Of a stretch of 64,000 nt of DNA, positions 18,243 through 39,045 are shown in pieces. This DNA comes from Pseudomonas extremaustralis. GTDB taxonomy: Bacteria; Pseudomonadota; Gammaproteobacteria; Pseudomonadales; Pseudomonadaceae. The notes under the pieces were generated by a model that worked only from the letters and a program-made list of their open reading frames with translations, was not told the DNA's origin and ran no database searches. Position 1 is the stretch's first letter. The number at the start of each line of letters is the position of its first letter. Made by a program: the position numbers and the translations under genes. Where the stretch lies: positions 4,959,001 to 5,023,000 of the forward strand of contig NZ_LT629689.1 of assembly GCF_900102035.1 (NCBI RefSeq), in the 5' to 3' direction.

Positions 18243-18725
18243 TCAGTCGTGTCCTTTGTTGATTAGGCAAAATGCCAGACCACCGGCGCAGTGGTCACCT
18301 AAATACTGGATCACCACCTCAGCATTTGGGTGGAATGTGTGACCAAGGCGGAACGCATCCCAGCCTCCAGTGACGCCAATCGGTGGCGGCAGCTTCGCGG
18401 GGCCTTTTGACTGGTAGGGCTCCCCAAGCAATGTGCGAACACTGGCCTGGCTCATCTTGTGGGTAAAGGGATTGGGCAGTTCACCCGTATACACCGGGTC
18501 GCCATCAACGAGCGCTGAAAGAGTGATAACGATTCGTTCCAGCCTGTGTGTTTCAGCCCAGAACCACAATTCAATTCCCGGCGCCGGTTTCTGGATCAGA
18601 TCCTCATTTTCCCCCTCGGTAAACAGTGGGACAGGTGGCGCGCCACGGACCAAACCGTCTGCGAGAAGTGCCTCGTAAGTGCACCCCAATCCCTTGATCA
18701 GGCGATTGATTGTCACTGCTTCCAT
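18243..18725 (-). CDS. Putative immunity protein (DUF6392-like) for the adjacent PAAR/pyocin effector
   Basis: A 160-residue soluble protein beginning EAVTINRLIKGLGCTYEALL, with no signal peptide, which fits a cytoplasmic immunity protein for a nuclease toxin. The start ATG shares its first base with the last base of the upstream stop codon (TGATG at 18723-18727), and AGGGG lies about 9 bases before it, so it is translationally coupled to the toxin gene. An ATG three codons upstream is in frame but lacks that spacing. Its family resembles DUF6392 proteins found next to S-type pyocin-domain toxins in Pseudomonas. The immunity role is inferred from position and family. Confidence 0.75.
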   Translation of the reverse strand: MEAVTINRLIKGLGCTYEALLADGLVRGAPPVPLFTEGENEDLIQKPAPGIELWFWAETHRLERIVITLSALVDGDPVYTGELPNPFTHKMSQASVRTLLGEPYQSKGPAKLPPPIGVTGGWDAFRLGHTFHPNAEVVIQYLGDHCAGGLAFCLINKGHD

Positions 18726-20233
18726 CAGTACCACCCCTGTTCTTCGTTGATCTCGTGCATTCTGACTCGGGCCGTTTCCAGGTCTGTCTCAGTAAATCCC
18801 TCTTCCAGCATATAGGGCTTGATCGCATCAAAATTACTGTCTACGGCTGCTCGAAGATCATCGGCGTCCGAGAGCTGCTTGGTCCGGGTGTTTCTCCCGC
18901 CATAGGTTTCGCTGAACTTCTGATGAACCTTGGTCGGAATCGCAACGCTCGCCACTTTCTTCAAGAATTCATCCGCTTGTTTCTGGGTCAGGGTTCTGAA
19001 GTTTGCTTCCAGGTAGCGACGAATAGCTGCCTGTGACGGCATATGGTCTACCTGTTGACCGTCGCGCAACCTCCCGGTGAAAGCGGCATAGACATCTACT
19101 TCCAGCGGTCTGACGACCGGTTTGGCGAATACCAGGTACAGCGGCGGCACACCAGAGTCTGCGGGGAAAACCAGGATGCAGTCCTGCCAGGTCAGATCGT
19201 CTGAGGCTGGATAGACTTCAATCTGGCTGTCGATGTTTTCAGTGACTGGGTGAACCAGGATGTTCTCCAGCGCGTTGGTGACGCCTGGATAGGTGGTTGG
19301 AGTTTGCACTACGGGAGCGTTACCGGGTGTCCAGATAACGGTGATGCCGTTGAGCTCGGCTTCCATGGCGCTTCGATCTTTGTTCCAGTCGACATCGACC
19401 ACCGGCACGCTATCCATGCCAGAGGACGCACTGGTGTGAATGCCGTACACCCGCATGATGCCTTCAGCATCACGCCGGAACTGAAAGCGCACTCGGGTTG
19501 GGGCCATCGTCATCCCGCGCAGCTGTTCCTCGGTCAGAGTCGAATCGCCAATGCGGGTAGGCCAAAACGCTACTAGCAGGGTGCTTGCTACTGTGCCCGC
19601 CGCTGCAGCAGCACCCCGTAGACTCCAAGTGCCGAGCGTTTCAAGCGCAGCCTGTCCGGCTACCCTGCCAAGGGTTGCGCCTTCTGTGCTGGCAATAGCC
19701 GTCGACCCCATCACCACGGCCTGACCAAAGTTGGCCACAGGCTCAATCACGGTGCCTGCCTCGGTTGACGCCGGTGGTACGGTGCAGGTTTTGGCAAACA
19801 CGCAGAGTCTTGACGGCTTATAGCCGCTTAGATTGTTGGTGGGGATACCAATCGTGAATTCGCTTTTATACGACCCATCGCTGATTGCTTTAGCCCAGAT
19901 GTGAGTCGCCGCCTGGGCTTGAGCGGCAAAATCAGGAGCAATGGCAACGCTTGTATCTTCAGCGGCCATGGTGCTGGTTTGGGTGGAAATAAGCCGGTTG
20001 CTACCAAAAGGGCAGCCACATTGGACGACATGACCATGGGTCGCGATAGCGACGAACTCGTCGATAAAGGTGGGGTTACCTTCAGCGATAAATCCCATCG
20101 AACTGCATTTTGGGCACCACACCGGATCGCTGATACGTGCTGCTTTTTTGTATTCGATGGTGGTGTTTGTGGAACCCTTAACGACTTTCCCGCCAGTGGT
20201 CGTGGGGTCCCCTTCCCTGATAACAAAAACCAT
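18725..20233 (-). CDS. PAAR / S-type pyocin domain effector with putative C-terminal nuclease toxin
   Basis: A 502-residue modular toxin. Residues 1-90 form a PAAR domain (IREGDPTTTGGKVVKGS; CPKC; VAIATHGHVVQCGCPFGS), the spike tip of a type VI secretion system. Then come an Ala/Gly-rich linker and an S-type pyocin domain (about 240-390, ending DSGVPPLYLVFAKP). The 100-residue tail has a DHMPS motif (D396, H397) and a VHQKFSETYGGRN motif (H437) and ends INEEQGWY. The two His motifs suggest an HNH-like or related nuclease; the enzymatic class is not proven. The ATG at 20233 is chosen because the PAAR sequence starts there; a TTG 13 codons upstream is less likely. No other type VI genes are nearby, so this is an orphan effector island of lower GC. 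Confidence 0.82.
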   Translation of the reverse strand: MVFVIREGDPTTTGGKVVKGSTNTTIEYKKAARISDPVWCPKCSSMGFIAEGNPTFIDEFVAIATHGHVVQCGCPFGSNRLISTQTSTMAAEDTSVAIAPDFAAQAQAATHIWAKAISDGSYKSEFTIGIPTNNLSGYKPSRLCVFAKTCTVPPASTEAGTVIEPVANFGQAVVMGSTAIASTEGATLGRVAGQAALETLGTWSLRGAAAAAGTVASTLLVAFWPTRIGDSTLTEEQLRGMTMAPTRVRFQFRRDAEGIMRVYGIHTSASSGMDSVPVVDVDWNKDRSAMEAELNGITVIWTPGNAPVVQTPTTYPGVTNALENILVHPVTENIDSQIEVYPASDDLTWQDCILVFPADSGVPPLYLVFAKPVVRPLEVDVYAAFTGRLRDGQQVDHMPSQAAIRRYLEANFRTLTQKQADEFLKKVASVAIPTKVHQKFSETYGGRNTRTKQLSDADDLRAAVDSNFDAIKPYMLEEGFTETDLETARVRMHEINEEQGWY

Positions 20234-20498
20234 TGCTCTCGCTCGTCGGCAGTTGAGGTGGAGGCTTACCAACCACCAGACAGATGCTAAACCCGGTCAC
20301 TGAGTTGGCAGTGACGAACGCAGACTAGCCACCTAAAAAAGCAGGGCACAAGCGGCTGGGACTTTCTCGGAAATGTCCTGCGAAAGAAAGGGACGCACAG
20401 GGTAGGAGTCGTGGTTTCAGACGTTGCCGAATCCCGGAATCGGTAGGTCGGTGTTGCGGGCGATACGGTGTTCAACGAACAAAAATTTCACGGGACGT
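20234..20498. other. Non-coding gap between effector and SPFH operon
   Basis: About 265 bases between divergent genes. It must hold the effector promoter on the minus strand. A 62-codon open frame on the minus strand (20287-20475) has no family resemblance and no clear ribosome binding site. The only recognisable element is the Zur-like palindrome at the right edge. Confidence 0.6.
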
Positions 20499-20511
20499 GT
20501 TATATCGTAAC
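20499..20511. promoter_or_regulatory. Candidate Zur box (degenerate) upstream of the SPFH-hmtA operon
   Basis: GTTATATCGTAAC has one perfect Zur half-site (GTTATA) and one with a single mismatch (CGTAAC for TATAAC). It lies 28 bases upstream of the ATG at 20539. It is weaker than the two boxes at 35357 and 37101. The P. aeruginosa HmtA locus is reported as zinc/Zur-responsive, which supports the reading. Confidence 0.55.
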
Positions 20512-20538
20512 GAATTGTGTGCAAGTGGGCGTAAGTGG

Positions 20539-22464
20539 ATGCAACTGGATCTAGAAGCGGAGGGCGCCTCGGTAGAAGGTTTGCCGCGTTTTCAGCAAGG
20601 GCTGTTCCATGCTCGTCGATTACGCCAAGCCGGGATCAGCCTGAGTGTTCTGGCCGTCGGCGGTTGGGTGCTGGCGTTGTTTGTCGCGCTGTTTGCGCCG
20701 TTGTCGATCTGGCCGGTGGTGTTGATCAACTGCGCATCGGCATTGCTGGTGCTGGTGGCGGGTTTGCAGTCGGCGTGGTGGGTGGCCGATTGGCGTGCCC
20801 AGGCGCTGGAAGAACCGTCCGCCGAGCTGATCGAATTGCCTGGCGAACCGGCCGCCTGGCACCGAGGCCTGATCAATCGTTTCGGCGGCGGCCTGCTTGC
20901 CCACATCGGTGCGCCGGTGTTGTGGCTCGGCGGTTGGTCGCTGCTGGCGCTGCTCAGCGTCCTTGAGTTCTGGAACCTGGCCTTGCCTGCTGCGCCTGTC
21001 GGTCAGTCCGCCAGTGTCGGCGCGGCGCTGGCCTTGGCGCTGGCGTTTGGCTTGCTGGTGTTCGAACGCCGCTTGGCCCAGGAAACCCCCGCGCAATGGC
21101 CGGAAGCCACGCAACTGGCACAACTGAGCCGGGTGGCGATCAGTTGCCTGGTGGTCAGCGCGATCTGCCTGCTGTTTGCGGGTGCCGAGTCGGTCTGGCC
21201 GTTGCGCCTGGCGGTGGTGATCGGGCTGTTGCCGGCGCTGGTGGCACTGGAGTTTCTATTACGCGGCGTGCTGTCGCTGTTCAGCCCGCGCCAGCCACGC
21301 CTCGAACCGCGCCTGATGGCCCAGAGCTTTGTCGCCGGTTTGCTGCGCTGGCCGCCGCAACCCTTGCTGGCGTTGCAGCATGAATTGCACAACCGCTTCG
21401 GTATCGACCTGCGGCAGATCTGGGCCTTTACCTACATGCGCCGGGCATTTTTGCCGGTGCTGCTGGTGGTGCTGGCGGTAGGCTGGGCGCTTACCGGTGT
21501 GCATGAAGTGCCCCTGCAAGGCCGTGGGATTTATGAGCGCTTCGGCAAACCGGTCGACGTGTTCGGCCCTGGCCTGCACGCCGGGTTGCCCTGGCCACTG
21601 GGCCGCGTGATCAACGTGGAGAATGGCGTGGTGCATGAGCTGGCCACCAGCGTCGGCGACACCGCCACACCCGAGTTGGCCGCCGCTGAAGGGCCGGCGC
21701 CGCTGATCGCCAATCGCTTGTGGGACGCTAGCCACGTGAACGACAAATCCCAGGTGATCGCCAGCAGCAGCGGCGACAAGCAGAGCTTCCAGATCGTCAA
21801 CATGGATGTGCGTTTCGTCTACCGCATCGGCCTTACCGACCAGGCCGCGCTGGCCGCCACTTATCACAGTGCGGATGTGCCGACCCTGATCCGCAGCACC
21901 GCCAGCCGCATCCTCGTACACGACTTTGCCTCGCGCACCCTCGACGAACTGCTGGGCGAACAACGTATCGGCCTGGCCGACGAGATCGGCCGCGCCGTGC
22001 AGGCAGACCTGCAAAAGCTCGACAGCGGTGTGGAAATCCTCGCCACCGTGGTGGAAGCCATCCACCCACCGGCCGGCGCCGCGAATGCCTACCACGGCGT
22101 GCAGGCCGCGCAGATCGGCGCCCAGGCCCTGATCTCCCGCGAGCGCGGCGCCGCCAGCGAACACACCAACCAGGCCTTGCTGCAAGCCAGCACCGCCCGC
22201 GACCAGGCCGTGGCCAGCGCCCGTGAAGTGAATGCCGGCGCCCAGGCGGCGGACCTGCGCTTTGCCGCCGAACAAAAGGCCTACGCCAGTGCGGGCAAAG
22301 CCTTCGTGCTGGAGCAGTACCTCGGCCAGCTGACCCAGGGCCTGGCCCACGCCAAACTGCTGATTCTGGATCACCGCCTGGGCGCCGATGGCGCGCCGAC
22401 GATCGATCTGCGTTCTTTTACCTTGCCGGCCGATCCTTCGGTGCCGCGTAAAGCCGTTCAATAA
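20539..22464 (+). CDS. Polytopic SPFH-domain protein (HflK-like), first of three
   Basis: A 641-residue inner-membrane protein. The N-terminal 320 residues contain several hydrophobic helices (for example GISLSVLAVGGWVLALFVAL and LRLAVVIGLLPALVALEFLL). A further helix (AFLPVLLVVLAVGWAL) precedes an SPFH/band 7 domain that starts VPLQGRGIYERFGKPVDVFG. An Ala/Glu/Gln-rich helical tail follows, as in flotillins and HflK. ATG 20539 (MQLDLEAEGAS) is preferred over GTG 20497, which falls inside the Zur-like palindrome. It heads an operon with two more SPFH genes and a P-type ATPase. SPFH proteins build membrane cages or microdomains; a role in organising or protecting the metal pump is inferred. 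Confidence 0.85.
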   Translation: MQLDLEAEGASVEGLPRFQQGLFHARRLRQAGISLSVLAVGGWVLALFVALFAPLSIWPVVLINCASALLVLVAGLQSAWWVADWRAQALEEPSAELIELPGEPAAWHRGLINRFGGGLLAHIGAPVLWLGGWSLLALLSVLEFWNLALPAAPVGQSASVGAALALALAFGLLVFERRLAQETPAQWPEATQLAQLSRVAISCLVVSAICLLFAGAESVWPLRLAVVIGLLPALVALEFLLRGVLSLFSPRQPRLEPRLMAQSFVAGLLRWPPQPLLALQHELHNRFGIDLRQIWAFTYMRRAFLPVLLVVLAVGWALTGVHEVPLQGRGIYERFGKPVDVFGPGLHAGLPWPLGRVINVENGVVHELATSVGDTATPELAAAEGPAPLIANRLWDASHVNDKSQVIASSSGDKQSFQIVNMDVRFVYRIGLTDQAALAATYHSADVPTLIRSTASRILVHDFASRTLDELLGEQRIGLADEIGRAVQADLQKLDSGVEILATVVEAIHPPAGAANAYHGVQAAQIGAQALISRERGAASEHTNQALLQASTARDQAVASAREVNAGAQAADLRFAAEQKAYASAGKAFVLEQYLGQLTQGLAHAKLLILDHRLGADGAPTIDLRSFTLPADPSVPRKAVQ

Positions 22465-22476
22465 GGAGTCTGTCTG

Positions 22477-23463
22477 TTGAGCGCTCATTCTCACGATCAT
22501 CATCATGGCCATCATCACCACCACCATCATCACGGCGATGAACAGGCCGCCGGCCCCTTCCCTTGGCGCCGCATGGCCTGGGCGGTGTTGCTGGTGCTGT
22601 TCGCGGTAGCGGCGGCGAGCCTGGTGCAAGTGCGCTCCGGCGAAGCCACGGTGATTACCCGTTTCGGCAACCCGTCGCGGGTGCTGCTGGAGCCGGGCCT
22701 GGGCTGGCGCTGGCCGGCGCCGTTCGAGGCGGCGATCCCGGTGGACCTGCGCCTGCGCACCACCTCCAGCGGTTTGCAGGATGTGGGCACCCGCGATGGC
22801 CTGCGCATCATCGTGCAGGCCTATGTGGCGTGGCAGGTGCAGGGCGATGCCGACAATGTGCAGCGCTTCATGCGCGCTGTGCAGAACCAGCCGGATGAAG
22901 CGGCGCGGCAGATTCGCACCTTCGTTGGCTCGGCGCTGGAAACCACCGCGGCCAGCTTCGACCTGTCCAGCCTGATCAATACCGATGCCAGCCAAGTGCG
23001 CATCGCCGATTTCGAGGCGCAGTTGCGCCAGCAGATCGATCAACAATTGCTCACCACCTATGGCGTGCGCGTGGCGCAGGTGGGTATCGAGCGGCTGACC
23101 TTGCCGTCGGTGACGCTCACCGCCACCGTCGACCGCATGCGCGCCGAGCGCGAAACCATCGCCACCGAACGCACCGCCGTGGGCAAGCGTGAAGCCGCGC
23201 AGATCCGTTCCGCCGCCGAACGCGATGCGCGCATCGTGCAGGCCGATGCCACGGTGAAAGCCGCCGACATCGAAGCGCAATCGCGGGTCGAAGCGGCGCA
23301 GATCTATGGCCGCGCCTACGCGGGCAATCCCCAGCTGTATAACCTGCTGCGCTCCCTCGATACCCTGGGCACCGTGGTCACCCCCGGCACCAAGATCATC
23401 CTGCGCACCGACGCCGCGCCGTTCCGCGCGTTGGTGGACGGGCCGAAGGACATCCAGCCATGA
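22477..23463 (+). CDS. SPFH-domain protein (HflK-like) with histidine-rich N-terminus
   Basis: A 328-residue protein starting at a TTG codon supported by AAGGAG eight bases upstream. The first 19 residues hold 13 histidines (H4, 6, 8-10 and 12-19), a cytoplasmic metal-binding tail. One membrane segment follows (MAWAVLLVLFAVAAASLVQV). The SPFH domain (GEATVITRFGNPSRVLLEPG) and an Ala/Glu-rich coiled-coil tail come next. Gap to the previous gene is 12 bases; the stop overlaps the next start by four bases. A His-rich tail is not a feature of ordinary HflK and points to zinc or copper handling in line with the downstream ATPase. Confidence 0.87.
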   Translation: MSAHSHDHHHGHHHHHHHHGDEQAAGPFPWRRMAWAVLLVLFAVAAASLVQVRSGEATVITRFGNPSRVLLEPGLGWRWPAPFEAAIPVDLRLRTTSSGLQDVGTRDGLRIIVQAYVAWQVQGDADNVQRFMRAVQNQPDEAARQIRTFVGSALETTAASFDLSSLINTDASQVRIADFEAQLRQQIDQQLLTTYGVRVAQVGIERLTLPSVTLTATVDRMRAERETIATERTAVGKREAAQIRSAAERDARIVQADATVKAADIEAQSRVEAAQIYGRAYAGNPQLYNLLRSLDTLGTVVTPGTKIILRTDAAPFRALVDGPKDIQP

Positions 23464-24494
23464 CCGAGCGTGACAGCCCGGACAGCCCATGGATCCAGGC
23501 CGGGCGCCTGACCTTCATGGCGCTGTACGCGGTGACCGTATTGGCGGCGTTGGCCTGGGCGTTTTCCAATGTGCGCCAGATCGACCCGCAGAACCGCGCC
23601 GTGGTGCTGCACTTCGGTGCCCTGGACCGCGTCCAGAACGCCGGGCTGTTGCTGGCGTGGCCGCAGCCATTCGAGCAGGTGGTGCTGTTGCCAGCGGCCG
23701 ACCGTGTGATCGAGCGCCGGGTGGACAACCTGCTGCGTTCCGAGGCGGCGAACCAGGCTGACCGCGTGGCCAGTCTCGCCACGCCGTTGAGCGATGCCCT
23801 GGCCGGTTCCGGCTACCTGCTGACCGGCGATGCCGGCGTGGTGCAGCTGGATGTGCGGGTGTTCTACAAGGTCACCGAGCCCTATGCCTTTGTGTTGCAG
23901 GGCGAGCACGTGCTGCCGGCGCTGGATCGCCTGGTGACGCGCAGCGCGGTGGCGCTGACGGCGGCGCGGGATCTGGACACGATCCTGGTGGCGCGCCCCG
24001 AACTGATCGGCAGCGACAACGGCGCCGCCGAACGGCGTGAACGGCTGCGCGGCGATCTGGTGCACGGTATCAACAAGCGCCTGGCGCAGTTGACCACCAG
24101 CGGCTTGGGACTGGGCATCGAAGTCACCCGCGTCGATGTGCAATCGAGCCTGCCGGGCCCGGCGGTGAATGCGTTCAATGCAGTGCTCACCGCCAGCCAG
24201 CAAGCCGACAAAGCCGTGGCCAACGCCCGTACCGACGCGGAAAAACTCACCCAAACCGCGAATCAGGAAGCCGACCGCCTGGTGCAAGTCGCCCACGCCC
24301 AGGCCAGCGAACGCCTGGCCAATGCCCAGGCGCAAACCGCCACCGTCGCCAGCCTGGCCCAGGTCAAAGACCCCGGCTTGCTGCTGCGCCTGTACCGCGA
24401 GCGCTTGCCGAAGATTCTCGGCCAGGCCGGCTCCGTGACCACGGTCGATCCTAAAGACGACTCCCGCTTGATCATCCAGGGAGCCGAACAATGA
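23460..24494 (+). CDS. SPFH-domain protein (HflC/HflK-like), third of three
   Basis: A 344-residue membrane protein with one N-terminal membrane segment (LTFMALYAVTVLAALAWAF). The band 7 domain begins IDPQNRAVVLHFGALDRVQNAG, and a helical tail is rich in Ala, Gln and Asn. Its ATGA start overlaps the stop of the His-rich SPFH gene, and its own stop overlaps the ATPase start in the same way. All these products are therefore likely made in fixed proportion. No FtsH or other protease gene is nearby, unlike true hflKC loci. Confidence 0.85.
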   Translation: MTERDSPDSPWIQAGRLTFMALYAVTVLAALAWAFSNVRQIDPQNRAVVLHFGALDRVQNAGLLLAWPQPFEQVVLLPAADRVIERRVDNLLRSEAANQADRVASLATPLSDALAGSGYLLTGDAGVVQLDVRVFYKVTEPYAFVLQGEHVLPALDRLVTRSAVALTAARDLDTILVARPELIGSDNGAAERRERLRGDLVHGINKRLAQLTTSGLGLGIEVTRVDVQSSLPGPAVNAFNAVLTASQQADKAVANARTDAEKLTQTANQEADRLVQVAHAQASERLANAQAQTATVASLAQVKDPGLLLRLYRERLPKILGQAGSVTTVDPKDDSRLIIQGAEQ

Positions 24495-26377
24495 GCGCGC
24501 CCATGCTGACCTCCGCCGAGCAGCGCAGCGCCGCCCGGCAATTGACCCTGGCCATGCTCGCCCTCGGTTTGCTGATGCTGGGCCTGGTGTGGCGCTGGCT
24601 GGCACCGGACCAGACCGGCGTGAGCCAGTTGCTGCTGGGTGTCGCCTCGTTGCTGGTGGCAGTGCCGGTGATGCGTTCGGCCTGGTACAGCCTGCGCTTC
24701 CCCAGCCTGCACGGCATCACCGACCAACTGATCGCCCTGGCGATGCTCGGCGCTTGGGCCACCGGCGATCTGCTGACCGCCGCGTTGCTGCCGATCATCA
24801 TGATCTTCGGGCATGTGCTGGAAGAGCGCAGCGTGATCGGCTCCCAGGAAGCGATCCATGCCTTGGGCAAACTGACCCGCAGCCAGGCGCGCCGGGTGCA
24901 GGCTGACGGGAGCATTATCGAAGTCGACAACGGTACGCTGAACACCGGCGATATCGTCGAAGTGCGCGCCGGCGACCGGGTGCCCGCCGATGGCGTGGTG
25001 CTGTCGGGCCAGGCGAGCCTGGACACGGCGCCGATCACCGGCGAGTCGGTGCCGTTGGAAGCCAGTGTCGGCGTGCAGGTGTTTGGCGGGGCGATCAACC
25101 TCGATGGTGTGCTGCGCCTGCAAGTGACCCGCACCGGCGAGGAATCGACCCTGGGCAAAGTCATTGCGCTGATGCAGAACGCCGAGCGCTCCAAGCCGCC
25201 AATCACGCGGCTGCTGGAGCGCTATGCCGGCAGCTATATGGTGTTGGTGCTGTTGCTGGCGGCGGTGACCTGGTTTGTCACCAACGATGCCCAGGCGATG
25301 CTGGCCGTGCTGGTGGCGGCATGCCCGTGCGCCTTGGTGCTGTCGGCCCCGGCCACGGCGATTGCCGGGATTGCCGTGGCGGCGCGCCATGGGATTCTGA
25401 TCCGCAGCTCGGCGTTCCTCGAAGAGTTGGCGGACCTGACCTCGCTGGTGGTCGACAAGACCGGCACCCTGACCTTTGGCACCCTGCGTTTGCAGTCCAT
25501 CCAGACCGCGTCGACGGATCGCCAGGCGCTGCTCAATCTTGCCGCCAGCCTGGGGTCGGCCAGCAGCCATCCGGTCAGCCGCGCGTTGGCGGGGCTGGCG
25601 ACCCAGGAGCAATTGCTGGGTTTGACCGACATCCGCGAGCGCCAGGGGTTGGGCGTGCTGGCGCAGACCGAACAGGGCGAAGCGGCGCTGGGGCGACCGG
25701 AGTTGTTCGAGCAATTGGGCATTGTCACAACGAGCGTACCGAACCACGACGGCCCGATTGCCGGGTTGGCGCTGAACGGGCACTTCCTTGCCTGGCTGTT
25801 GCTGGCCGACAGCGTCAAACCGGAAGCCCGCCAGGCCCTGCAAGAACTGCGCGACCTGGGCCTGGGCCGGCAATTGTTGCTGACCGGCGACCGTCAAAGC
25901 GTGGCCGACAGCCTGGCGCTGGACGTGGGCATCAGCGACGTCGAAGCCCAGGCCCTGCCGGAAGACAAGCTCAACCGCGTGCTGGGTGAGATCGGCAGCG
26001 GCTTCCGGCCGATGGTGGTGGGTGACGGGATCAACGATTCCCTGGCGCTCAAGGCCGGCGTGGTCGGCGTGGCCATGGGCGCGGGCGGGGCGGACATCGC
26101 GCTGGCCTCGGCGGATGTGGTGCTGATCGGCAGTGACCTGCGCCGCCTGGGCACCTGCGTGCGCCTGAGTCGCCAGTGCCGGCACACCTTGCAGGTCAAT
26201 GTGATCATCGGCCTGGGCTGGACGCTGGCGATCGTGGTGTTTGCCGCGTTCGGTTGGCTGGGCGCCGCCGGGGCGATGATTGCCGCGGTGCTGCATAACC
26301 TCAGCACCTTGCTGGTGCTGGGTAACGCCGGGCGCTTGCTGCGGTTTCACGAGCCGCTGTCGAAGCTCGAGGAATGA
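24491..26377 (+). CDS. hmtA: Heavy-metal P1B-type ATPase, HmtA-like
   Basis: A 628-residue metal pump with no N-terminal heavy-metal-binding domain. It has TGES at 183-186 (actuator), the membrane metal site CPC at 278-280, the phosphorylated Asp322 in DKTGTLT, the SSHP motif of P1B ATPases, and GDGINDSLAL. The last membrane helices carry HNLSTLLVLGNAGRLL. Gene order (SPFH genes followed by the ATPase) matches the PA2439-PA2435 region of P. aeruginosa, whose HmtA mediates zinc/copper uptake rather than efflux. The start overlaps the third SPFH stop (ATGA). Metal and direction are taken from that homolog and not readable from sequence. Confidence 0.87.
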   Translation: MSAPMLTSAEQRSAARQLTLAMLALGLLMLGLVWRWLAPDQTGVSQLLLGVASLLVAVPVMRSAWYSLRFPSLHGITDQLIALAMLGAWATGDLLTAALLPIIMIFGHVLEERSVIGSQEAIHALGKLTRSQARRVQADGSIIEVDNGTLNTGDIVEVRAGDRVPADGVVLSGQASLDTAPITGESVPLEASVGVQVFGGAINLDGVLRLQVTRTGEESTLGKVIALMQNAERSKPPITRLLERYAGSYMVLVLLLAAVTWFVTNDAQAMLAVLVAACPCALVLSAPATAIAGIAVAARHGILIRSSAFLEELADLTSLVVDKTGTLTFGTLRLQSIQTASTDRQALLNLAASLGSASSHPVSRALAGLATQEQLLGLTDIRERQGLGVLAQTEQGEAALGRPELFEQLGIVTTSVPNHDGPIAGLALNGHFLAWLLLADSVKPEARQALQELRDLGLGRQLLLTGDRQSVADSLALDVGISDVEAQALPEDKLNRVLGEIGSGFRPMVVGDGINDSLALKAGVVGVAMGAGGADIALASADVVLIGSDLRRLGTCVRLSRQCRHTLQVNVIIGLGWTLAIVVFAAFGWLGAAGAMIAAVLHNLSTLLVLGNAGRLLRFHEPLSKLEE

Positions 26378-26493: not shown

Positions 26494-26745
26494 ATGAACA
26501 TCAAAAATGTCGTTTCCGGTGCTGCCCTGGCTATCGCTGCCGCCTCCATGTTTGCCGGTGTCGCGACTCAGGTCCAGGCCGCTGACGCTCCCGTTCATTG
26601 CTACGGCGTGACTTCCTGCAAAGGCATGAACGACTGCAAGACCGCTGAAAACAGCTGCAAAGGCCAGGCGGTCTGCAAGGGCCATGGCTTCAAGTCCATG
26701 ACCAAGGCCGCTTGCGACGCAGCTGGCGGTAAAGTCGGCGAGTAA
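26494..26745 (+). CDS. bufA: Bufferin-type RiPP precursor (DUF2282)
   Basis: An 83-residue exported Cys-rich peptide. A Sec signal peptide ends at about Ala29 ([11 protein letters not shown]). The mature part has Cys at 36, 42, 48, 55, 61 and 74, in a pattern [22 protein letters not shown]. This is the DUF2282 signature of BufA/HvfA precursors. In characterised relatives a DUF692 enzyme converts cysteines to oxygenated heterocycles that bind copper in the periplasm. TGAGGATTACACA gives a fair ribosome binding site. The modifying enzyme and its partner follow directly. Confidence 0.92.
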
Positions 26746-26813
26746 CCGGCAACCTGCGTGAACCCGCAGCGGCTGCCTCCCACCGCTGCGGACACGCTGC
26801 CCAGGAGTGTCTT

Positions 26814-27659
26814 ATGTCCGTCTCCCTTCCAAACCTTGGCTACGGCCTGGGTTTACGCAGTGAGTACTACCAGCAGATCCTTGAACAATCGCCGCCTGTG
26901 GATTGGTTCGAGGTGATTTCCGAGAATTATCTGGTGCAGGGTGGCAAGGCCCTGTACTTCCTGGACGCCATCGCCGAGCGCTATCCGCTGGTGATGCACG
27001 GGGTGTCCCTGTCCATCGGCGGGCCCCATGCGCTCGACACCGATTACCTCAAGCAAATCAAATCCCTGGCCGAGCGTATCCAGCCGGCGTGGATTTCCGA
27101 TCACCTGTGCTGGAGCCGCGGCAACGCGCACCAGTTGCATGACCTGCTGCCCCTGCCTTACACCGAAGAAAGCCTCTACCACGTGGCCGCCCGCGTGCGT
27201 CAGGTGCAGGACGTGTTGCAGCGCCCGCTGGTGCTGGAAAACGTCTCCAGCTACGTGCGCGCCAAGGCCGATGAATTTACCGAGTGGGAATTCCTTAACG
27301 CCCTGACCCACCTGTCGGGCTGCCAATTGCTGCTGGACGTCAATAACGTCTATGTCAGCTCGCGCAACCATGGGTTCGACGCCTGGACCTTTATCCGCAA
27401 CCTGCCGCCCGAGAGCATTCGTCAGTTGCACCTGGCCGGGCATATGGACTACGGCGACTATGTGGTCGACACCCACGACCACCCGGTGTGCGATCCGGTG
27501 TGGGCGCTGTATCAACAGACCCTGGAGCACTTCGGGCCGATCTCCACGCTGCTGGAGCGCGATGACCATTTCCCGCCGTTCGAAGAACTGCTCGCCGAGT
27601 TGAGCAAGGCGCGGGAACTGGGGGCTACGGCCCTGGCGCGGAGATCGCTATGCGCTTGA
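26814..27659 (+). CDS. bufB: MNIO-family RiPP-modifying enzyme (DUF692)
   Basis: A 281-residue TIM-barrel multinuclear non-heme iron oxidase. Conserved metal-ligand motifs are all present: H62 in MHGVSLSIG, H97 in SDHLCW, E142 in LENVSSY, D175 in LLDVNN, H206 in QLHLAGH, D219 and H221 in DTHDHP, and E248 in LERDD. It is expected to modify cysteines of the adjacent precursor in the cytoplasm before export. The ATG has CAGGAG upstream. It overlaps the next gene by 10 bases, so BufB and BufC are probably co-translated. Confidence 0.93.
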   Translation: MSVSLPNLGYGLGLRSEYYQQILEQSPPVDWFEVISENYLVQGGKALYFLDAIAERYPLVMHGVSLSIGGPHALDTDYLKQIKSLAERIQPAWISDHLCWSRGNAHQLHDLLPLPYTEESLYHVAARVRQVQDVLQRPLVLENVSSYVRAKADEFTEWEFLNALTHLSGCQLLLDVNNVYVSSRNHGFDAWTFIRNLPPESIRQLHLAGHMDYGDYVVDTHDHPVCDPVWALYQQTLEHFGPISTLLERDDHFPPFEELLAELSKARELGATALARRSLCA

Positions 27660-28438
27660 TCGATTGGCAACTGGCGTTTGAACAACACCTGCTGTCTGAA
27701 ACATCGACGGCCAACAGTCACTTTGCTGGCACCTTGCTCGGCGGGCCGACGCTGGATGTGGACACGGGCCTGGCGATTTATCACAACGCCTATCTGTCGC
27801 GGCTGCAGGAGGTGTTGCGCCATGACTTCGGTGCCATCCGGTATTGGCTGGGTGACGATGAGTTCGCGGCGCTGACCGAGGCCTATGTGCGCCGTTATCC
27901 GTCCGCTCACTTCAGCTTGCGCTGGCTGGGCGAGCGCTTCCCGGCATTTATTCTTGAACACCTTGTGGCCGAGCAGAGCGCGCCGCTGGCCGAATTGGCA
28001 CGTCTGGAGTGGGCTTTTACCCTGGCGTTCGATGCGCCCCAGGGCCAACCGCTGACCCTGGACGACATGGCGCAGTTGTCACCCGACGAGTGGCCGGATT
28101 TGCAGGTGGACCTGGCGCCCTCGGTGCAGCAGATGCTGTGCCGCTTCAACACCGTGGCGCTTTGGCGCGCGAGCAAGGACGAGTCGGAGTTTCCCGCCAG
28201 CCAGGCCCTTGAATTGGCACAGATTTGCCTGGTCTGGCGTCATCAGAACCTGTGCCAGTATCGCAGCCTGGACCCTGCCCAAGCCTGTGCCTTGGCCGGA
28301 ATGGTGACCACCGGTTGGAATTTTTCAGAACTGTGTGCCGAGTTGGCAGTCACTTATGCAGAGGGTGCGCCACTGCAAGCCGCCACGTGGCTGAAACAGT
28401 GGGTCCAGGATGGGCTGCTCGAGCGTCGAGGCCCATAG
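27650..28438 (+). CDS. bufC: MNIO partner protein (DUF2063/HvfC-BufC family)
   Basis: A 262-residue protein with the N-terminal DUF2063 domain: GLAIYHNAYLSRLQEVLRHDF, then FAALTEAYVRRYPSAHFSLR. In other systems this domain binds the precursor and pairs with the DUF692 enzyme. The C-terminal half is less conserved. It is sometimes labelled a DNA-binding domain, but the operon context (precursor, enzyme, partner) argues for a substrate-presenting role. No DoxX-like membrane gene, often the fourth member of such clusters, is found after it. Confidence 0.9.
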   Translation: MRLIDWQLAFEQHLLSETSTANSHFAGTLLGGPTLDVDTGLAIYHNAYLSRLQEVLRHDFGAIRYWLGDDEFAALTEAYVRRYPSAHFSLRWLGERFPAFILEHLVAEQSAPLAELARLEWAFTLAFDAPQGQPLTLDDMAQLSPDEWPDLQVDLAPSVQQMLCRFNTVALWRASKDESEFPASQALELAQICLVWRHQNLCQYRSLDPAQACALAGMVTTGWNFSELCAELAVTYAEGAPLQAATWLKQWVQDGLLERRGP

Positions 28439-32012: not shown

Positions 32013-32891
32013 TCATGGCTTGCCCAACGCCGCGCACAAGGTGTTGAGGTTGTATTCGAACAGCCCGGTGAAGGTGCTGGCCGGGCCTTCTGCGGCGAGG
32101 GCGTCGGAGTACAGCGTGCCGCCGATCTGCGCGCCGCTTTCGTCAGCGATCTGCTTGAGCAGGCGCGAGTCCTTGATGTTTTCCATGAACACGGCCTTGA
32201 CCTTGTCCTTGCGGATCTGGGTGATCAGCGCGGCGACTTCGGCGGCGGACGGTTCACGTTCGGTGGACAAGCCTTGTGGCGCAAGGAACTCGATGCCATA
32301 TGCCTGGCCCAGATAACCGAAGGCGTCGTGGGAGGTGACAATGCGACGGTTGCCCGGCGGCAGCGCGCCGAACTTGGCTTTGGCTTCGGCCAGCAGGCGG
32401 TAGATCTCTTTCAGGTACGCCTGGCTGTTGCGCAGGTAATCGGTCTTGTTGGCCGGGTCGGCGGCCACCAGCGCCTTGGTGATGTTGTTCACGTAGATTT
32501 CGGCGTTGGCCAGGTTATGCCAGGCGTGCGGGTCGGGGATGGTTTCGCCGTCCTCTTCCATGGTGTGGGAAATCACGCCTTTGCTGGCGGTGACCACGGT
32601 GGCCTTGGTTTCGGTGCTGGTCACCAGGCGGTCCAGCCACGGCTCGAAGCCCAGGCCGTTCTTGATGATCAGCTTGGCCTTGAGCAGCGCCTTGGCGTCG
32701 TCCGGGGTGGGCTCATAGGTATGGGCGTCGGCGTCGGGGCCGACCATGTTGCTGATCTGGATGTGATCGCCACCGATCTGGTGGGTGATGTCATCGAGAA
32801 TGCTGAAGCTGGTGACCACTTGGAGTTTGTCGGCCGCCTGGGCCGTCGATAACGCCATGACGAAACTGAACAGCACGAGTAGAGCGCGCAT
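32013..32891 (-). CDS. znuA: Zinc/metal ABC transporter substrate-binding protein
   Basis: A 292-residue periplasmic cluster A-I metal-binding protein with a Sec signal (RALLVLFSFVMALSTAQA). Metal-ligand positions are visible: His in DADAHTYEP, His in PDPHAWHN, His in VTSHDAFGYL, and the acidic residue in GTLYSDAL. It lacks the long His-rich loop of classical ZnuA, so it is a paralogous type. ATG 32891 is used because GAGGTG precedes it; an ATG five codons upstream contains that ribosome binding site. It is the last gene of the folE2-znuC-znuB-znuA operon. Confidence 0.92.
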   Translation of the reverse strand: MRALLVLFSFVMALSTAQAADKLQVVTSFSILDDITHQIGGDHIQISNMVGPDADAHTYEPTPDDAKALLKAKLIIKNGLGFEPWLDRLVTSTETKATVVTASKGVISHTMEEDGETIPDPHAWHNLANAEIYVNNITKALVAADPANKTDYLRNSQAYLKEIYRLLAEAKAKFGALPPGNRRIVTSHDAFGYLGQAYGIEFLAPQGLSTEREPSAAEVAALITQIRKDKVKAVFMENIKDSRLLKQIADESGAQIGGTLYSDALAAEGPASTFTGLFEYNLNTLCAALGKP

Positions 32892-32902
32892 CGGGAAACA
32901 CC

Positions 32903-33769
32903 TCATTGGGATGACAGCGAAGGCGGGCGGCGCAGCAAGCCGTGCACCGGACCGAAGACCACGGACAGCAGGTACCCGCCGCCCGCCACCAGCACGATCG
33001 CCGGGCCGCTGGGCAGCGAGTAATAGAACGACAGCAACAAACCGAACCACACCGACAGGCATCCCAGCACCGCCGATATTGCGATCAACACCGGCAGGCG
33101 CCGGCTCCAGAAACGTGACGCGATGGCTGGCAGCATCATCAAGCCCACCACCATCAACGCGCCAATGGCTTGAAAACCGATCACTAGGTTCAGCACCACC
33201 AGGGTCAGGAACAGGCCGTGGGCCAGTGGGCCGAGGCGGCTGACGGTTTGCAGGAAGAGCGGGTCGAGGGTGTCCAGCAGCAAGGGTTTGTAGATCAACC
33301 CCATGGCGATCAGGCTGAAGCCGGAGACCCAGAGCATGCCGGTGAGGGTGGTTTCGTCGACGGCCAGGGCCGAGCCGAACAGCAGGTGCAGCAAATCCAG
33401 GCGCTTGCCGGCCAAGCCCAGGATCAGCACGCCGGCGGCGAGGGAGATGGGGTAGATGGCGGCGAGGCTGGCGTCTTCGCGCAGGCCGGTGCGGCGCGTG
33501 ATCCATGCCGACAGCCCGGCCATGCTCAAGCCTGCGCCGAGGCCGCCGATGGTCAGCGCGGGCAGGCTCAGCCCGGCGAACCAGAAGCCCAGGGCCGCGC
33601 CGGGCAGGATGCCGTGGGCGACGGCGTCGCCGATCAGGCTCATGCGCCGCAGTATCAGAAATACCCCCAGCGGCGCGGTGCTGCAGGCGAGTACCAGGCC
33701 GCCGATCAGTGCGCGGCGCATGAACACGAAATCGAGAAACGGCATCCACAGGTGGGCAGTAAAGTGCAT
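32903..33769 (-). CDS. znuB: Zinc/metal ABC transporter permease
   Basis: A 288-residue ABC-3 family permease (start HFTAHLWMPFLDFVFMRRAL) with about eight membrane helices, including LIGGLVLACSTAPLGVFLIL and the family-typical MSLIGDAVAHGILPGAALGF loop that contacts the ATPase. Its ATG shares a base with the stop of znuC (TGATG), indicating translational coupling, and it ends 11 bases before the znuA start codon. Confidence 0.93.
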   Translation of the reverse strand: MHFTAHLWMPFLDFVFMRRALIGGLVLACSTAPLGVFLILRRMSLIGDAVAHGILPGAALGFWFAGLSLPALTIGGLGAGLSMAGLSAWITRRTGLREDASLAAIYPISLAAGVLILGLAGKRLDLLHLLFGSALAVDETTLTGMLWVSGFSLIAMGLIYKPLLLDTLDPLFLQTVSRLGPLAHGLFLTLVVLNLVIGFQAIGALMVVGLMMLPAIASRFWSRRLPVLIAISAVLGCLSVWFGLLLSFYYSLPSGPAIVLVAGGGYLLSVVFGPVHGLLRRPPSLSSQ

Positions 33770-34437
33770 CAGGCCACCTGCATGTGCGGTTGCGGGCGGA
33801 TCAGTTCTTTGCTCGGCCCGAACACGCAACCGGTGCTTTTGATCTGCACCACTTGCTGGGTGTGCTGGCGCACCGAGGCCAGGTCATGACAGACCACGAC
33901 CACCGTGCGGCCCTCGTCATGCCAGGCGTGGATATGTTTCCAACACAGGGCCTGGCCGTCTTCGTCGAGGGCCGCGTGGGGTTCGTCGAGCAGCAGCACC
34001 GGCGCTTCGGCCAGGCTCATGCGGGCGAGCAGGGCGCGTTGCAATTCGCCGCCGGACAAGGCCATCAACGGGCGCTGCTCCAGGCCGTTGAGGCACCAGT
34101 CCTCCAAGACGGCGTGCAGGCGTTCGTTGCGTTGTTGTGGCGTGAGTCGTGTGCCCCAGAACCCGGCGGCGACCAGTTCTTGCAAGCTGATGGGGAACTG
34201 CCGGTCGAGGTGCTGTTGCTGGGGCAGGAACGACACGCCGCCACGGCGCGGAACGTCCATTGTCACCTTGCCCGATAACGGTTTTTGCAGGCCGGCGATG
34301 ACTTTGAGCAGGCTGCTTTTGCCGCTGCCGTTGGCGCCGATGACGCCGGTGAGGCTGGCTTTTATCAGGGTCAAATCCAGCGCCGGGGTCAGCGGTTGGC
34401 CGGGGGCGCCCCAGCGCAACGCGGTGCAGGTAATCAT
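33769..34437 (-). CDS. znuC: Zinc/metal ABC transporter ATP-binding protein
   Basis: A 222-residue ABC ATPase with Walker A GANGSGKSS, a Q-loop region FLPQQQHLD, signature LSGGELQRALLARM, Walker B APVLLLDEP and the switch His in VVVVCHDL. It overlaps the end of folE2 by four bases (ATGA) and znuB by one, so the whole folE2-znuCBA unit is one coupled operon under the Zur box at 35357. Confidence 0.94.
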   Translation of the reverse strand: MITCTALRWGAPGQPLTPALDLTLIKASLTGVIGANGSGKSSLLKVIAGLQKPLSGKVTMDVPRRGGVSFLPQQQHLDRQFPISLQELVAAGFWGTRLTPQQRNERLHAVLEDWCLNGLEQRPLMALSGGELQRALLARMSLAEAPVLLLDEPHAALDEDGQALCWKHIHAWHDEGRTVVVVCHDLASVRQHTQQVVQIKSTGCVFGPSKELIRPQPHMQVA

Positions 34438-35324
34438 ACGGAGTGTCTCGTCCAGCGGCTTTCAGCCACGGCATCGTGCGCGTGCAGGCTTTCGGCGTGG
34501 ATCACTTTGAGGTGGAAGGCTTTGACGGCATCCGAGCGTTTCAAGGCGAGGTTCAGGCGGCGGGCGGCGTCTTCGCAGAACATCAGGTTTTGCCCGTTGG
34601 CCAGGGCGAAGGCTTGTTCGTCCGCACGTTTCACCGCGGTTTGCACGGCGGTGCCGAGGGCGGCCTCGGCGTCGTTGATCAGCTCGACCAGGGCCAGGTG
34701 GTCGCCTTGCAGATGCACATGCAGTTGCGCGCTGCTGCGCTGGCTGTGGGGCGTGGCGACAATGCCATTGGCGCTGCCGAGCCAGGTCAATACGTCTTCA
34801 TGGCGCAAGGGCGTGTTGCCGAAGTCCTGGAGAAATTGCTGCTGAATCAACTGCCTGGCGAGGGCCGCTGAGCACGGGCAGGTTGAGGAGTACGCCACGT
34901 CAATTTTTAGTTCCACGTGGAACATCTGGTTTTCCACACGCGCTTCGATGCTCACCGGATAGGCTTTCCAGCCAGTCAATGGGCTGACCAGCGCGGGTCG
35001 TTTCAGCAGCAAGTCGGTGTGAATACGTAGGTAGGCGTTCTTAGATAAATCTTCATGACTGTCGAGAAAACGCTGCAGTACATTGCGCAGAAGTGCAGGT
35101 GTAAGCGGCTGCTGTTCAAGCATCTCCAGCGCCAGGTACAGGCGTGACATGTGAATGCCACGGGCGCTGCCGTCGTCCAGGCTGACGCCGGCATCGGCAG
35201 TGGCGGTCAGGCGCTGGTCGTCGATGAGGATCGGCAGGGCGATACCGCACATACCTACCCAGTCGAGTGGCAAGGCTTGGCGTGAAGCCTGCGCGGCGAT
35301 ATCCGGCAGAGTCAGCGCATTCAT
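34434..35324 (-). CDS. folE2: GTP cyclohydrolase FolE2 (zinc-independent type IB)
   Basis: A 296-residue type IB GTP cyclohydrolase that makes dihydroneopterin triphosphate for folate. Unlike zinc-dependent FolE it can use other divalent metals, so bacteria express it when zinc is scarce. The catalytic Cys149 is in STCPCSAAL, and the N-terminus ALTLPDIAAQ is typical. An ATG four codons upstream (35336) is possible but lacks a better ribosome binding site. A Zur box lies 33 bases upstream, and it heads the znuCBA operon. Confidence 0.95.
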   Translation of the reverse strand: MNALTLPDIAAQASRQALPLDWVGMCGIALPILIDDQRLTATADAGVSLDDGSARGIHMSRLYLALEMLEQQPLTPALLRNVLQRFLDSHEDLSKNAYLRIHTDLLLKRPALVSPLTGWKAYPVSIEARVENQMFHVELKIDVAYSSTCPCSAALARQLIQQQFLQDFGNTPLRHEDVLTWLGSANGIVATPHSQRSSAQLHVHLQGDHLALVELINDAEAALGTAVQTAVKRADEQAFALANGQNLMFCEDAARRLNLALKRSDAVKAFHLKVIHAESLHAHDAVAESRWTRHSV

Positions 35325-35356
35325 GGGCAGGTCCATCGTTGGAAATAAAAAGACAT

Positions 35357-35369
35357 GTTATATTATAAC
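35357..35369. promoter_or_regulatory. Zur box between folE2 and amiA
   Basis: GTTATATTATAAC is a palindrome (GTTATA, one base, TATAAC) matching the gamma-proteobacterial Zur consensus. It lies between the divergent folE2-znuCBA operon and amiA, so one site can repress both when zinc is sufficient. Confidence 0.9.
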
Positions 35370-35452
35370 TATTGAGTCGACGATACTTTTTCTGTCTCAG
35401 TCTTTTTTCAGTCATGTCGAGTAGGGACGCTCCTCTATCTGCGGTATTTGTC

Positions 35453-36655
35453 ATGCACAGACGTCAGCTCCTTAACCTGCTTCTGGTCAGCCCCCTGTTC
35501 ACCTTGCCCTTTGCCGCGTCGGCCACGCAGATTCGTAATGCGCGCCTGTGGCGCTCGGATGACAAGTTGCGGCTGGTGTTCGACCTCAGCGGCCCGGTGC
35601 AATACAAGACCTTTTCCCTCAGCGCACCCGAACGCCTGATCATCGACCTCAGTGGCGCCGGGCTCAGTGGTGATTTTTCGCAATTGATGTTGAAGGGCAG
35701 CGGAATCACCTCGATCCGCTCCGGGCATTTCGGCAAGGGCGATACGCGCATCGTGCTGGACCTGGCCGCGCCGATGCAGCTCAACAGCTTCCTGTTGCCG
35801 CCCCAGGATGGGCAAGGGCACCGCCTGGTGCTCGATCTCACCAGCGCCACTCAGGCGCCGCGCTCGATAGCGGCGCAACCCAAGCCATCGGTGGACAGGG
35901 CGCACCCCAAGCGCGACATCATCGTGGTGGTCGACCCCGGCCACGGCGGCAAGGACCCAGGTGCTATCGGTTCCAAGGGCCAGCGCGAAAAAGACGTGGT
36001 GCTGTCCATCGCCCAATTGCTGGCCAAACGCTTGAAGCGCGAGAAAGGTTTCGATGTGAAGCTGGTGCGCAACGATGACTTCTTCGTGCCGCTGCGCAAG
36101 CGCGTGGAGATCGCCCACAAGCACAACGCCGACATGTTTATCTCGGTGCATGCGGATGCGGCGCCACGGATCACTGCGTCGGGGGCTTCGGTGTATGCCT
36201 TGTCCGAAGGTGGCGCCACTTCCGCCACGGCACGGTTCATGGCGCAACGGGAAAACGGCGCCGACCTGCTGGGTGCCACCAGCCTGCTGAACCTCAAGGA
36301 CAAGGACCCGATGCTGGCCGGGGTGATTCTCGACATGTCGATGAACGCCACCATCGCCTCCAGCCTGCAATTGGGCAGCTCGATCCTGGGCAGCCTGGAA
36401 GGCATCACCTCGCTGCATCAGAAGCGCGTCGAACAGGCCGGGTTCGCGGTGCTCAAGTCACCGGATGTGCCGTCGATCCTGGTGGAAACCGGGTTTATCT
36501 CCAATGCGCGGGACAGTGCGCGGTTGGTCACCGCACGGCATCAGCAGGCGGTGGCGGATGGCTTGTTCGACGGCCTGCAGCGCTATTTCCAGAAGAACCC
36601 GCCGGTGAACAGCTACATGGCCTGGGTCCAAGAGCAGAAAAACGGCCAGGCCTAA
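35453..36655 (+). CDS. amiA: N-acetylmuramoyl-L-alanine amidase (zinc-regulon paralog)
   Basis: A 400-residue periplasmic amidase that cuts septal peptidoglycan. A signal peptide (LLNLLLVSPLFTLPFAASA) is followed by an AMIN domain (IRNARLWRSDDKLRLVFDLS) and an Amidase_3 domain from about residue 155. The zinc and catalytic residues are present: H164 in DPGHGGKDPG, H233 in SVHADAAP and E345 in ETGFISN. ATG 35453 starts the signal peptide; earlier in-frame starts overlap the promoter region. Placement beside the Zur box suggests a spare amidase for zinc starvation, as for PA5538. Its stop overlaps the convergent gene by four bases. Confidence 0.93.
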   Translation: MHRRQLLNLLLVSPLFTLPFAASATQIRNARLWRSDDKLRLVFDLSGPVQYKTFSLSAPERLIIDLSGAGLSGDFSQLMLKGSGITSIRSGHFGKGDTRIVLDLAAPMQLNSFLLPPQDGQGHRLVLDLTSATQAPRSIAAQPKPSVDRAHPKRDIIVVVDPGHGGKDPGAIGSKGQREKDVVLSIAQLLAKRLKREKGFDVKLVRNDDFFVPLRKRVEIAHKHNADMFISVHADAAPRITASGASVYALSEGGATSATARFMAQRENGADLLGATSLLNLKDKDPMLAGVILDMSMNATIASSLQLGSSILGSLEGITSLHQKRVEQAGFAVLKSPDVPSILVETGFISNARDSARLVTARHQQAVADGLFDGLQRYFQKNPPVNSYMAWVQEQKNGQA

Positions 36656-37020
36656 CAGCCGGTCACGCGGCTGCAAGTGAATTTGGCACTGGCGCCACCG
36701 GAGCTGGAGAACCGATTGATCGTGGTCCACCCCACGCGCTGTGTGTAGCCGACCCACGCCTCACCGTCCGACGCCAGCCCGGTGAAGAACGTCAGTTGCC
36801 CATAGCGGCTGTTGGTCTGCGCCCAATAGCGTCTGCCGATCGCCTCGAAACCACGCAAATACGTCGTGCTGCCAACTGTCGCCACGCTGTAGGCATTGCC
36901 CTGCGGGTCTACACAGGCCAGCAGGTTGGCGCTGCGCGTGCAGTTGGCCAGCATGCTCGGGGCCTGGGCGCAGGCCGGTCCTGCGGCCACCAATAACAAG
37001 GCGCACACCAGGTATTTCAT
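36652..37020 (-). CDS. Small exported disulfide-rich protein, probable Zur-regulon member
   Basis: A 122-residue protein with a Sec signal ending ACA/QAPS. The mature part has four Cys in two pairs (C27/C36 and C116/C122), suggesting two disulfides. It has a Gly/Tyr/Thr-rich middle (YLRGFEAIGRRYW, FFTGLASDGEAWVGY). I do not recognise the family. It is transcribed away from zigA, with the Zur box at 37101 about 80 bases upstream, so zinc starvation should induce it. ATG 37020 starts the signal peptide. Confidence 0.75.
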   Translation of the reverse strand: MKYLVCALLLVAAGPACAQAPSMLANCTRSANLLACVDPQGNAYSVATVGSTTYLRGFEAIGRRYWAQTNSRYGQLTFFTGLASDGEAWVGYTQRVGWTTINRFSSSGGASAKFTCSRVTGC

Positions 37021-37100
37021 AGGGTTTCTCGAGGTTGGGAGGAGGTTAAGCATTGCGCCCTTCATCGTGACGAGCAAGGAGGGATTGGCTTATTTGTGTT

Positions 37101-37113
37101 GTTATACTATAAC
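37101..37113. promoter_or_regulatory. Zur box between the small exported protein and zigA
   Basis: GTTATACTATAAC, extended to TGTTATACTATAACA, is a near-perfect Zur palindrome. It lies 48 bases before zigA and 81 bases before the divergent gene, placed to control both. Confidence 0.9.
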
Positions 37114-37160
37114 ATAAAACAAAGCCTGGCTTGACCGGGCAGCCTGATGAGAATGACCTG

Positions 37161-39013: not shown

Positions 39014-39045
39014 CCGGGTAGGATCAAGCTCTCTACACGGTCCGA

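Follow-up and report, generated by a model that had tools for sequence, protein, structure and literature searches.

Several described systems resemble in part the arrangement found in a stretch of 64 kb (the window, meaning this whole stretch) of the 6.67-Mb single-contig genome of Pseudomonas extremaustralis (GCF_900102035.1, contig NZ_LT629689.1, positions 4,959,001 to 5,023,000), in which three genes for SPFH (band 7) proteins, designated SPFH-A, SPFH-B and SPFH-C, run into a gene for an HmtA-type P1B-ATPase. The HflK/HflC-FtsH complex shares the SPFH fold and the tree placement with this unit, which, however, has three SPFH proteins instead of two, scores below the family cut-offs and possesses a polytopic N-terminal domain on SPFH-A, histidine-rich tails and an ATPase rather than a protease in the operon. 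An SPFH dome around a transporter is formed by stomatin, which encapsulates aquaporin-1 and UT-B, but in the human red cell, with a single SPFH protein, passive channels and no operon (PMC12407830; papers with a PMC number are represented throughout by excerpts). In mycobacteria, PacL1 scaffolds the zinc ATPase CtpC, with scaffold and P1B-ATPase in one operon, a metal-binding motif and coiled Ala/Glu repeats as in the window, although PacL1 is a small DUF1490 protein and not an SPFH protein, its foci are flotillin-independent and its function is efflux (PMC9374683); DUF1490 gave no match in SPFH-A, SPFH-B or SPFH-C. Closest is the Pseudomonas aeruginosa PA2439-PA2434 (hmtA) cluster, with HflK-family, HflC and HflC-family genes ahead of hmtA, induction in a znuA mutant and a weak Zur site, but with PA2436 inserted between PA2437 and hmtA (PMC4542158, PMC8531726). 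Judged from gene order and from same-family genomes with 77-82% identical ATPases, the locus in the window matches this cluster. Both this cluster and its response to zinc have already been published; the excerpts of these two papers do not treat the four genes as one machine. Among the open-licence papers listed, none was found to propose that these SPFH proteins combine physically with the ATPase, and their excerpts contain no obligate four-gene unit, tail on either SPFH protein or ATPase, invariant histidines or CDF-like domain.

The analysis suggests that the four genes constitute a single zinc-starvation unit whose scaffold serves the pump alone, as a housing that binds metal. The more specific proposition, that the zinc/copper P-type ATPase is enclosed and stabilised by its own SPFH dome of three components, which probably also feeds or buffers it, is evenly balanced between being right and wrong. 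The elements of the locus are as follows.

20499..20511, strand ".": Zur-box-like palindrome GTTATATCGTAAC of pattern GTTAN5TAAC, upstream of ATG 20539
20539..22464, + strand: SPFH-A, 641 amino acids, with about 7-8 predicted membrane helices (residues 1-320) followed by an HflK-type SPFH domain (Band_7; AlphaFold2 models)
21634..22095, + strand: codons of SPFH-A His366 (21634), His399 (21733), His509 (22063) and His519 (22093), candidate periplasmic metal ligands (alignment)
22477..23463, + strand: SPFH-B, 328 amino acids, TTG start, HflC-type (Band_7, hflC score, tree)
22477..22536, + strand: N-terminal tail of SPFH-B, rich in His (13 of the first 20 residues) and located ahead of the single membrane helix
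23460..24494, + strand: SPFH-C, 344 amino acids, HflK-type (Band_7, hflK score, tree with own clade on the HflK side)
24491..26377, + strand: HmtA-type P1B-ATPase, 628 amino acids (TIGR01525 and motifs)

Coordinates, Band_7 and TIGR01525 matches bear out the original prediction of three band 7 genes leading into an HmtA-type ATPase: 12 bases, with AAGGAG ahead of the TTG at 22477, separate SPFH-B from the SPFH-A stop at 22464, and SPFH-B/SPFH-C as well as SPFH-C/ATPase overlap by 4 bases. The SPFH-A start had been placed at the GTG 20497-20499, which is very probably wrong, as this codon overlaps the perfect palindrome at 20499-20511; ATG 20539 is the shared start and gives 641 amino acids, the length of many listed homologues. 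The order is A-B-C-ATPase, all on the + strand. A fixed stoichiometry, read earlier from the overlaps, does not follow, since overlaps fix no ratio. That no protease is encoded here holds for the operon; FtsH, encoded elsewhere, is still a possible partner.

The association of the SPFH proteins with this ATPase clade is strict in both collections surveyed. Among 398 genomes drawn from the phylum, SPFH-A (E 1e-30 or better) was found in 11, spread over three families, and the HmtA-clade ATPase (at least 869.9 bits and at least 68% identity) in the same 11, with the next-best genome ATPase at 296 bits and 37% identity. Among 72,556 plasmid records, SPFH-A (E 1e-5) occurred in 10 and the HmtA-clade ATPase, at 55.7 to 73.9% identity, in the same 10 (7 Rhizobium, 1 Burkholderia, 1 Paraburkholderia and 1 Klebsiella aerogenes, hence alpha-, beta- and gammaproteobacteria), while the next plasmid ATPases among the matches listed were about 35% identical. 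An intermediate ATPase class without SPFH was seen neither in the 398 genomes nor among the plasmid matches listed, so that frequent ATPases without SPFH neighbours, which the original prediction had named as weakening it, did not turn up. Its co-occurrence test came out in its favour, and its idea that the SPFH proteins may cage, cluster or load the ATPase is supported in part. Six of the 11 same-genus genomes carry both SPFH-A and ATPase and five carry neither; the unit is therefore accessory, its genes being gained and lost together. The Klebsiella aerogenes carrier, pYD-K10_1 (L009), holds the whole unit on a predicted-conjugative plasmid, on which a Tn3 transposase and a gene annotated as aminoglycoside phosphotransferase lie only a few kilobases away.

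Gene order is equally constant. All four genes stand in order in the 10 genome loci other than that of the window, which partly repeat a larger set of 90 loci. This set joins the 10 plasmid loci to the best 80, kept for high similarity, of at least 291 relatives retrieved when genome contigs were scanned with an alignment of the ATPase; going by their titles, these 80 comprise 70 Pseudomonas, 7 Enterobacteriaceae, 2 Rahnella and 1 gammaproteobacterium. The order A-B-C-ATPase is present in 90/90 loci, and start-stop overlaps join C to the ATPase in 87, B to C in 83 and A to B in 58. The gene order in 90/90 and the C/ATPase overlap in 87/90 are beyond chance.

Zinc control of the four-gene unit fits the palindrome ahead of SPFH-A, which we take, from the literature, to be a putative Zur box. 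The pattern GTTAN5TAAC matches three times in the window (mean 0.11 in 100 shuffles): once ahead of SPFH-A, once in the interval from folE2 to an amidase gene and once ahead of zigA. These are 3 of 15 places in the whole 6.67 Mb, where the pattern is not in excess (15 vs 70 for the reversed control pattern). Near the SPFH-A start it recurs in 70/90 related loci; the exact pattern was found there in 0/10 plasmid loci and was not found in 10/80 genome loci either. With a looser box scan of 20 loci, the site of one locus (L020) exceeds all 200 shuffles and several other loci are no better than shuffles. What has been published on the regulation of the corresponding genes in P. aeruginosa fits as well: five tabulated genes of PA2439-PA2434 are 5.6 to 14.4-fold up in a znuA mutant, with a weak Zur site (PMC4542158), and the PA2439 promoter is shifted by Zur in the presence of zinc (PMC8531726). 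In zinc-depleted cells PA2435, PA2437, PA2438 and PA2439 were higher by proteomics, with p 0.011 for PA2438 by data-dependent acquisition (DDA) and p >0.05 for PA2435, PA2437 and PA2439 and by the second method (PMC11761036). Shared regulation alone can gather such genes, as the other Zur-type genes of the window (folE2, zigA) illustrate, and the SPFH proteins might then provide a general membrane service at zinc shortage, as HflK/HflC-like raft proteins that share the operon without contact with the ATPase. This explanation is judged the least probable of those considered, as the pairing holds in 10/10 plasmid loci, where no box was found near SPFH-A, and the SPFH genes follow the ATPase through gain and loss.

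The three proteins are clearly SPFH proteins, with Band_7 at 74.2, 110.1 and 61.1 bits for A, B and C against a Pfam cut-off of 23.6 (E 1.8e-20, 1.7e-31 and 1.9e-16). Plain HflK/HflC membership was rejected: for NCBIfam hflK (TIGR01933, cut-off 159.4) SPFH-A reaches 50.7 bits, its best match, and SPFH-C 92.0 bits, and for hflC (TIGR01932, cut-off 134.4) SPFH-B reaches 94.6 bits, whereas two other HflK/HflC pairs of the genome, the canonical and a second one, pass with 376.2/283.4 and 265/199.2. The genome's canonical HflK has the HflK N-terminal domain PF12221, which is absent from SPFH-A and SPFH-C as well as from the second HflK. Against solved structures the profile of SPFH-B matches HflC (1.1e-26) and that of SPFH-A HflK (4.9e-15). 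In a tree of 36 rows, with long branches flagged, A, B and C each form one clade (support 100/100, 100/99 and 100/100), B joining HflC and A and C standing on the HflK side (100/99). As a separate observation, the second HflK/HflC-type pair of the genome (L005, G000:C1:4267436-4270954) adjoins a TerC-family membrane protein, a putative metal transporter.

This kinship is also the starting point of the main rival explanation, FtsH-mediated turnover control, in which the trio would be a zinc-starvation HflK/HflC that binds the membrane protease FtsH and controls when it can reach the ATPase, sparing the pump at zinc shortage and letting it be removed afterwards. We regard it as unlikely, though of some weight. 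HflC-type SPFH-B and HflK-type SPFH-A and SPFH-C are what such a role would call for; FtsH binds via HflK, and the known FtsH substrates listed include mgtA, a gene for a P-type ATPase (PMC13220708). Mutation of HflK Arg141 together with two other residues weakens FtsH binding (PMC13220708). At the positions of E. coli HflK Arg141, Glu142 and Arg185, SPFH-A has His-Glu followed by Arg/Glu/Gln, thus retaining the Glu of the Arg141-Glu142 pair in many rows but with an invariant His in place of Arg141, and SPFH-C has Ile/Leu, Glu/Gln and Asp/Glu; the genome's own HflK reads Arg-Ala-Gln in the same alignment, and as Pseudomonas HflK, too, is without the exact E. coli triplet, the comparison is weak. 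The scores of A, B and C under the HflK/HflC cut-offs, with two qualifying pairs elsewhere in the genome, speak against turnover control, as does the invariant His of SPFH-A at the Arg141 position, and it leaves the His-rich tails unexplained.

The ATPase is a heavy-metal P1B-ATPase by TIGR01525 (523.3 bits, cut-off 346.25) with CPC at 278 and DKTGT at 322, and carries HN..T at 602. In the Pfam scan it matched PF00122 and PF00702 only, and no N-terminal metal-binding domain was found. Where SsZntA has Lys693 and Asp714, the ATPase has a Thr and His602, and in these residues it differs from a ZntA-type (P1B-2) zinc exporter; His602 is conserved in 101/101 rows. The import direction, like the Zur control, is taken from the P. 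aeruginosa literature, where it is disputed (PMC10393844). An ATPase working outward or in both directions would instead fill a periplasmic SPFH dome with zinc or copper destined for exported proteins, which is considered improbable. Among proteins of solved structure, those related to the ATPase carry the names of exporters or translocating ATPases, a His-rich cytosolic tail might equally donate metal to an exporter, and a review finds that import by HmtA still needs confirmation (PMC10393844). On the other hand, overexpression of HmtA, as retold there, reportedly made cells hypersensitive and increased the zinc and copper inside them (PMC10393844), Zur control fits uptake, and the residues at 602 and at the Lys693 place are unlike those of the SsZntA exporter.

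The candidate metal-binding features of the unit consist of histidines. With thresholds of at least 4 His for SPFH-B and at least 3 His for the ATPase, a His-rich N-terminal tail is present on SPFH-B in 82/90 loci, on the ATPase in 23/90 and on at least one of the two in 90/90; the 8 loci without an SPFH-B tail are all from Enterobacteriaceae and all have the ATPase tail. The tail of SPFH-B is probably cytosolic, by analogy with HflK/HflC and from an Arg-Arg ahead of the membrane helix. In SPFH-A, His366, His399, His509 and His519 are each identical in 101/101 aligned rows, and none is a His in three HflK proteins; His366 is the residue aligned with E. coli HflK Arg141. The four are candidate periplasmic metal ligands. 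SPFH-B has no His anywhere in its SPFH part and SPFH-C no invariant His in the aligned rows.

How a dome would assemble, touch the ATPase, lie in the membrane and bind metal we infer as follows. SPFH-B (HflC-type) would join SPFH-A and SPFH-C (both HflK-type) in a heteromeric membrane dome like that of HflK/HflC, with the HmtA-clade P1B-ATPase as its dedicated client rather than, or before, FtsH. One HflC-type and two HflK-type proteins may point to an A:B:C ratio of 1:2:1. On the periplasmic side the dome would cluster and stabilise the ATPase, zinc (or copper) would be collected by the conserved histidines that SPFH-A exposes to the periplasm, the His-rich cytosolic tail of SPFH-B or of the ATPase would receive the metal on the other side, and Zur would allow synthesis of the unit at zinc shortage. 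A bolder version, a zinc antechamber, is doubtful: here the four-His site (366, 399, 509, 519; the first at the FtsH-contact place of HflK) in a periplasmic dome would sit atop a membrane domain that descends from the CDF zinc-transporter fold, or has converged on it, but lacks the CDF metal site, and metal would pass through the enclosed P1B-ATPase to the cytosolic His tails of SPFH-B or the ATPase. The predicted fold of the SPFH-A membrane domain tentatively resembles CDF zinc transporters. As a firm assignment this was rejected, since the Foldseek resemblance is not significant and sequence profiles show nothing: PF01545 (CDF) has no match up to E 10 in four proteins, and hhalign of the SPFH-A N-terminal domain against four CDFs of the genome gave a probability of 0.2% and E 0.33.

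Several observations weigh against a dedicated metal-binding housing. The 90 loci were selected by high similarity, and many of them are close Pseudomonas relatives. In the other genome loci the C/ATPase overlap is found in 8/10, being absent from L111, where about 600 bases with an open reading frame of 150 amino acids separate SPFH-C from the ATPase, and from L112, and in 1/10 (L115) an in-frame stop splits SPFH-B. Definition and thresholds of the His-rich tails were set after looking at the sequences, and the swap of the tail between SPFH-B and the ATPase may represent one event, because all 8 loci concerned are from Enterobacteriaceae. The enrichment of invariant His in SPFH-A is weak (5/11 His vs 64/322 residues, Fisher p 0.046, post hoc). 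Finally, P. aeruginosa hmtA mRNA was low and not repressed by added zinc, despite Zur binding to the PA2439 promoter (PMC8531726). The open reading frame of L111 (G062:C1:1564000-1580000, 7142-7594) has a signal-peptide-like start and occupies the same place as PA2436 in P. aeruginosa PAO1. In L115 (G199:C11:2800-18500) SPFH-A, SPFH-C and the ATPase are open while SPFH-B is split, with real decay or a sequencing error as possible causes.

The operon has neighbours on both sides. BufA2, BufB and HvfC-like genes (26494-28438) follow immediately 3' of the ATPase, and the PAAR-Pyocin_S and DUF6392 genes (18243-20272) look like an effector and immunity pair. Further downstream, a zinc-starvation island spans 32013-40020 and includes two Zur-like boxes, one at 35357 and one at 37101.

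18243-18734, - strand: DUF6392 gene, downstream of the PAAR-Pyocin_S gene
18725-20272, - strand: PAAR-Pyocin_S protein, divergent from the operon
26494-26745: BufA2 bufferin precursor, directly after the ATPase (95.1 bits, cut-off 60)
26814-27659: MNIO maturase BufB, after BufA2
27650-28438: DUF2063/HvfC-like partner, after BufB (below the HvfC cut-off)
32013-33749, - strand: ZnuA-type binding-protein fusion, zinc-starvation island
33769-34437, - strand: AztA-like ABC ATPase (below cut-off)
34434-35336, - strand: folE2, zinc-starvation island
35372-36655, + strand: amidase, AmiA/AmiC type (below cut-offs)
37131-38369, + strand: zigA, zinc-starvation island
38369-39013, + strand: DUF1826 protein, zinc-starvation island
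39046-40020, + strand: second CobW-type GTPase (below cut-offs)

The four-gene unit bears on what SPFH domes enclose besides proteases and on whether HmtA truly imports. A zinc antechamber, if true, would mean that an SPFH assembly itself handles the transported substrate. If the SPFH trio are obligate partners of the ATPase clade, work on HmtA has so far missed most of the machine to which it belongs, and the four genes would provide a compact bacterial model, defined by its genes, for an SPFH dome built for one transporter.

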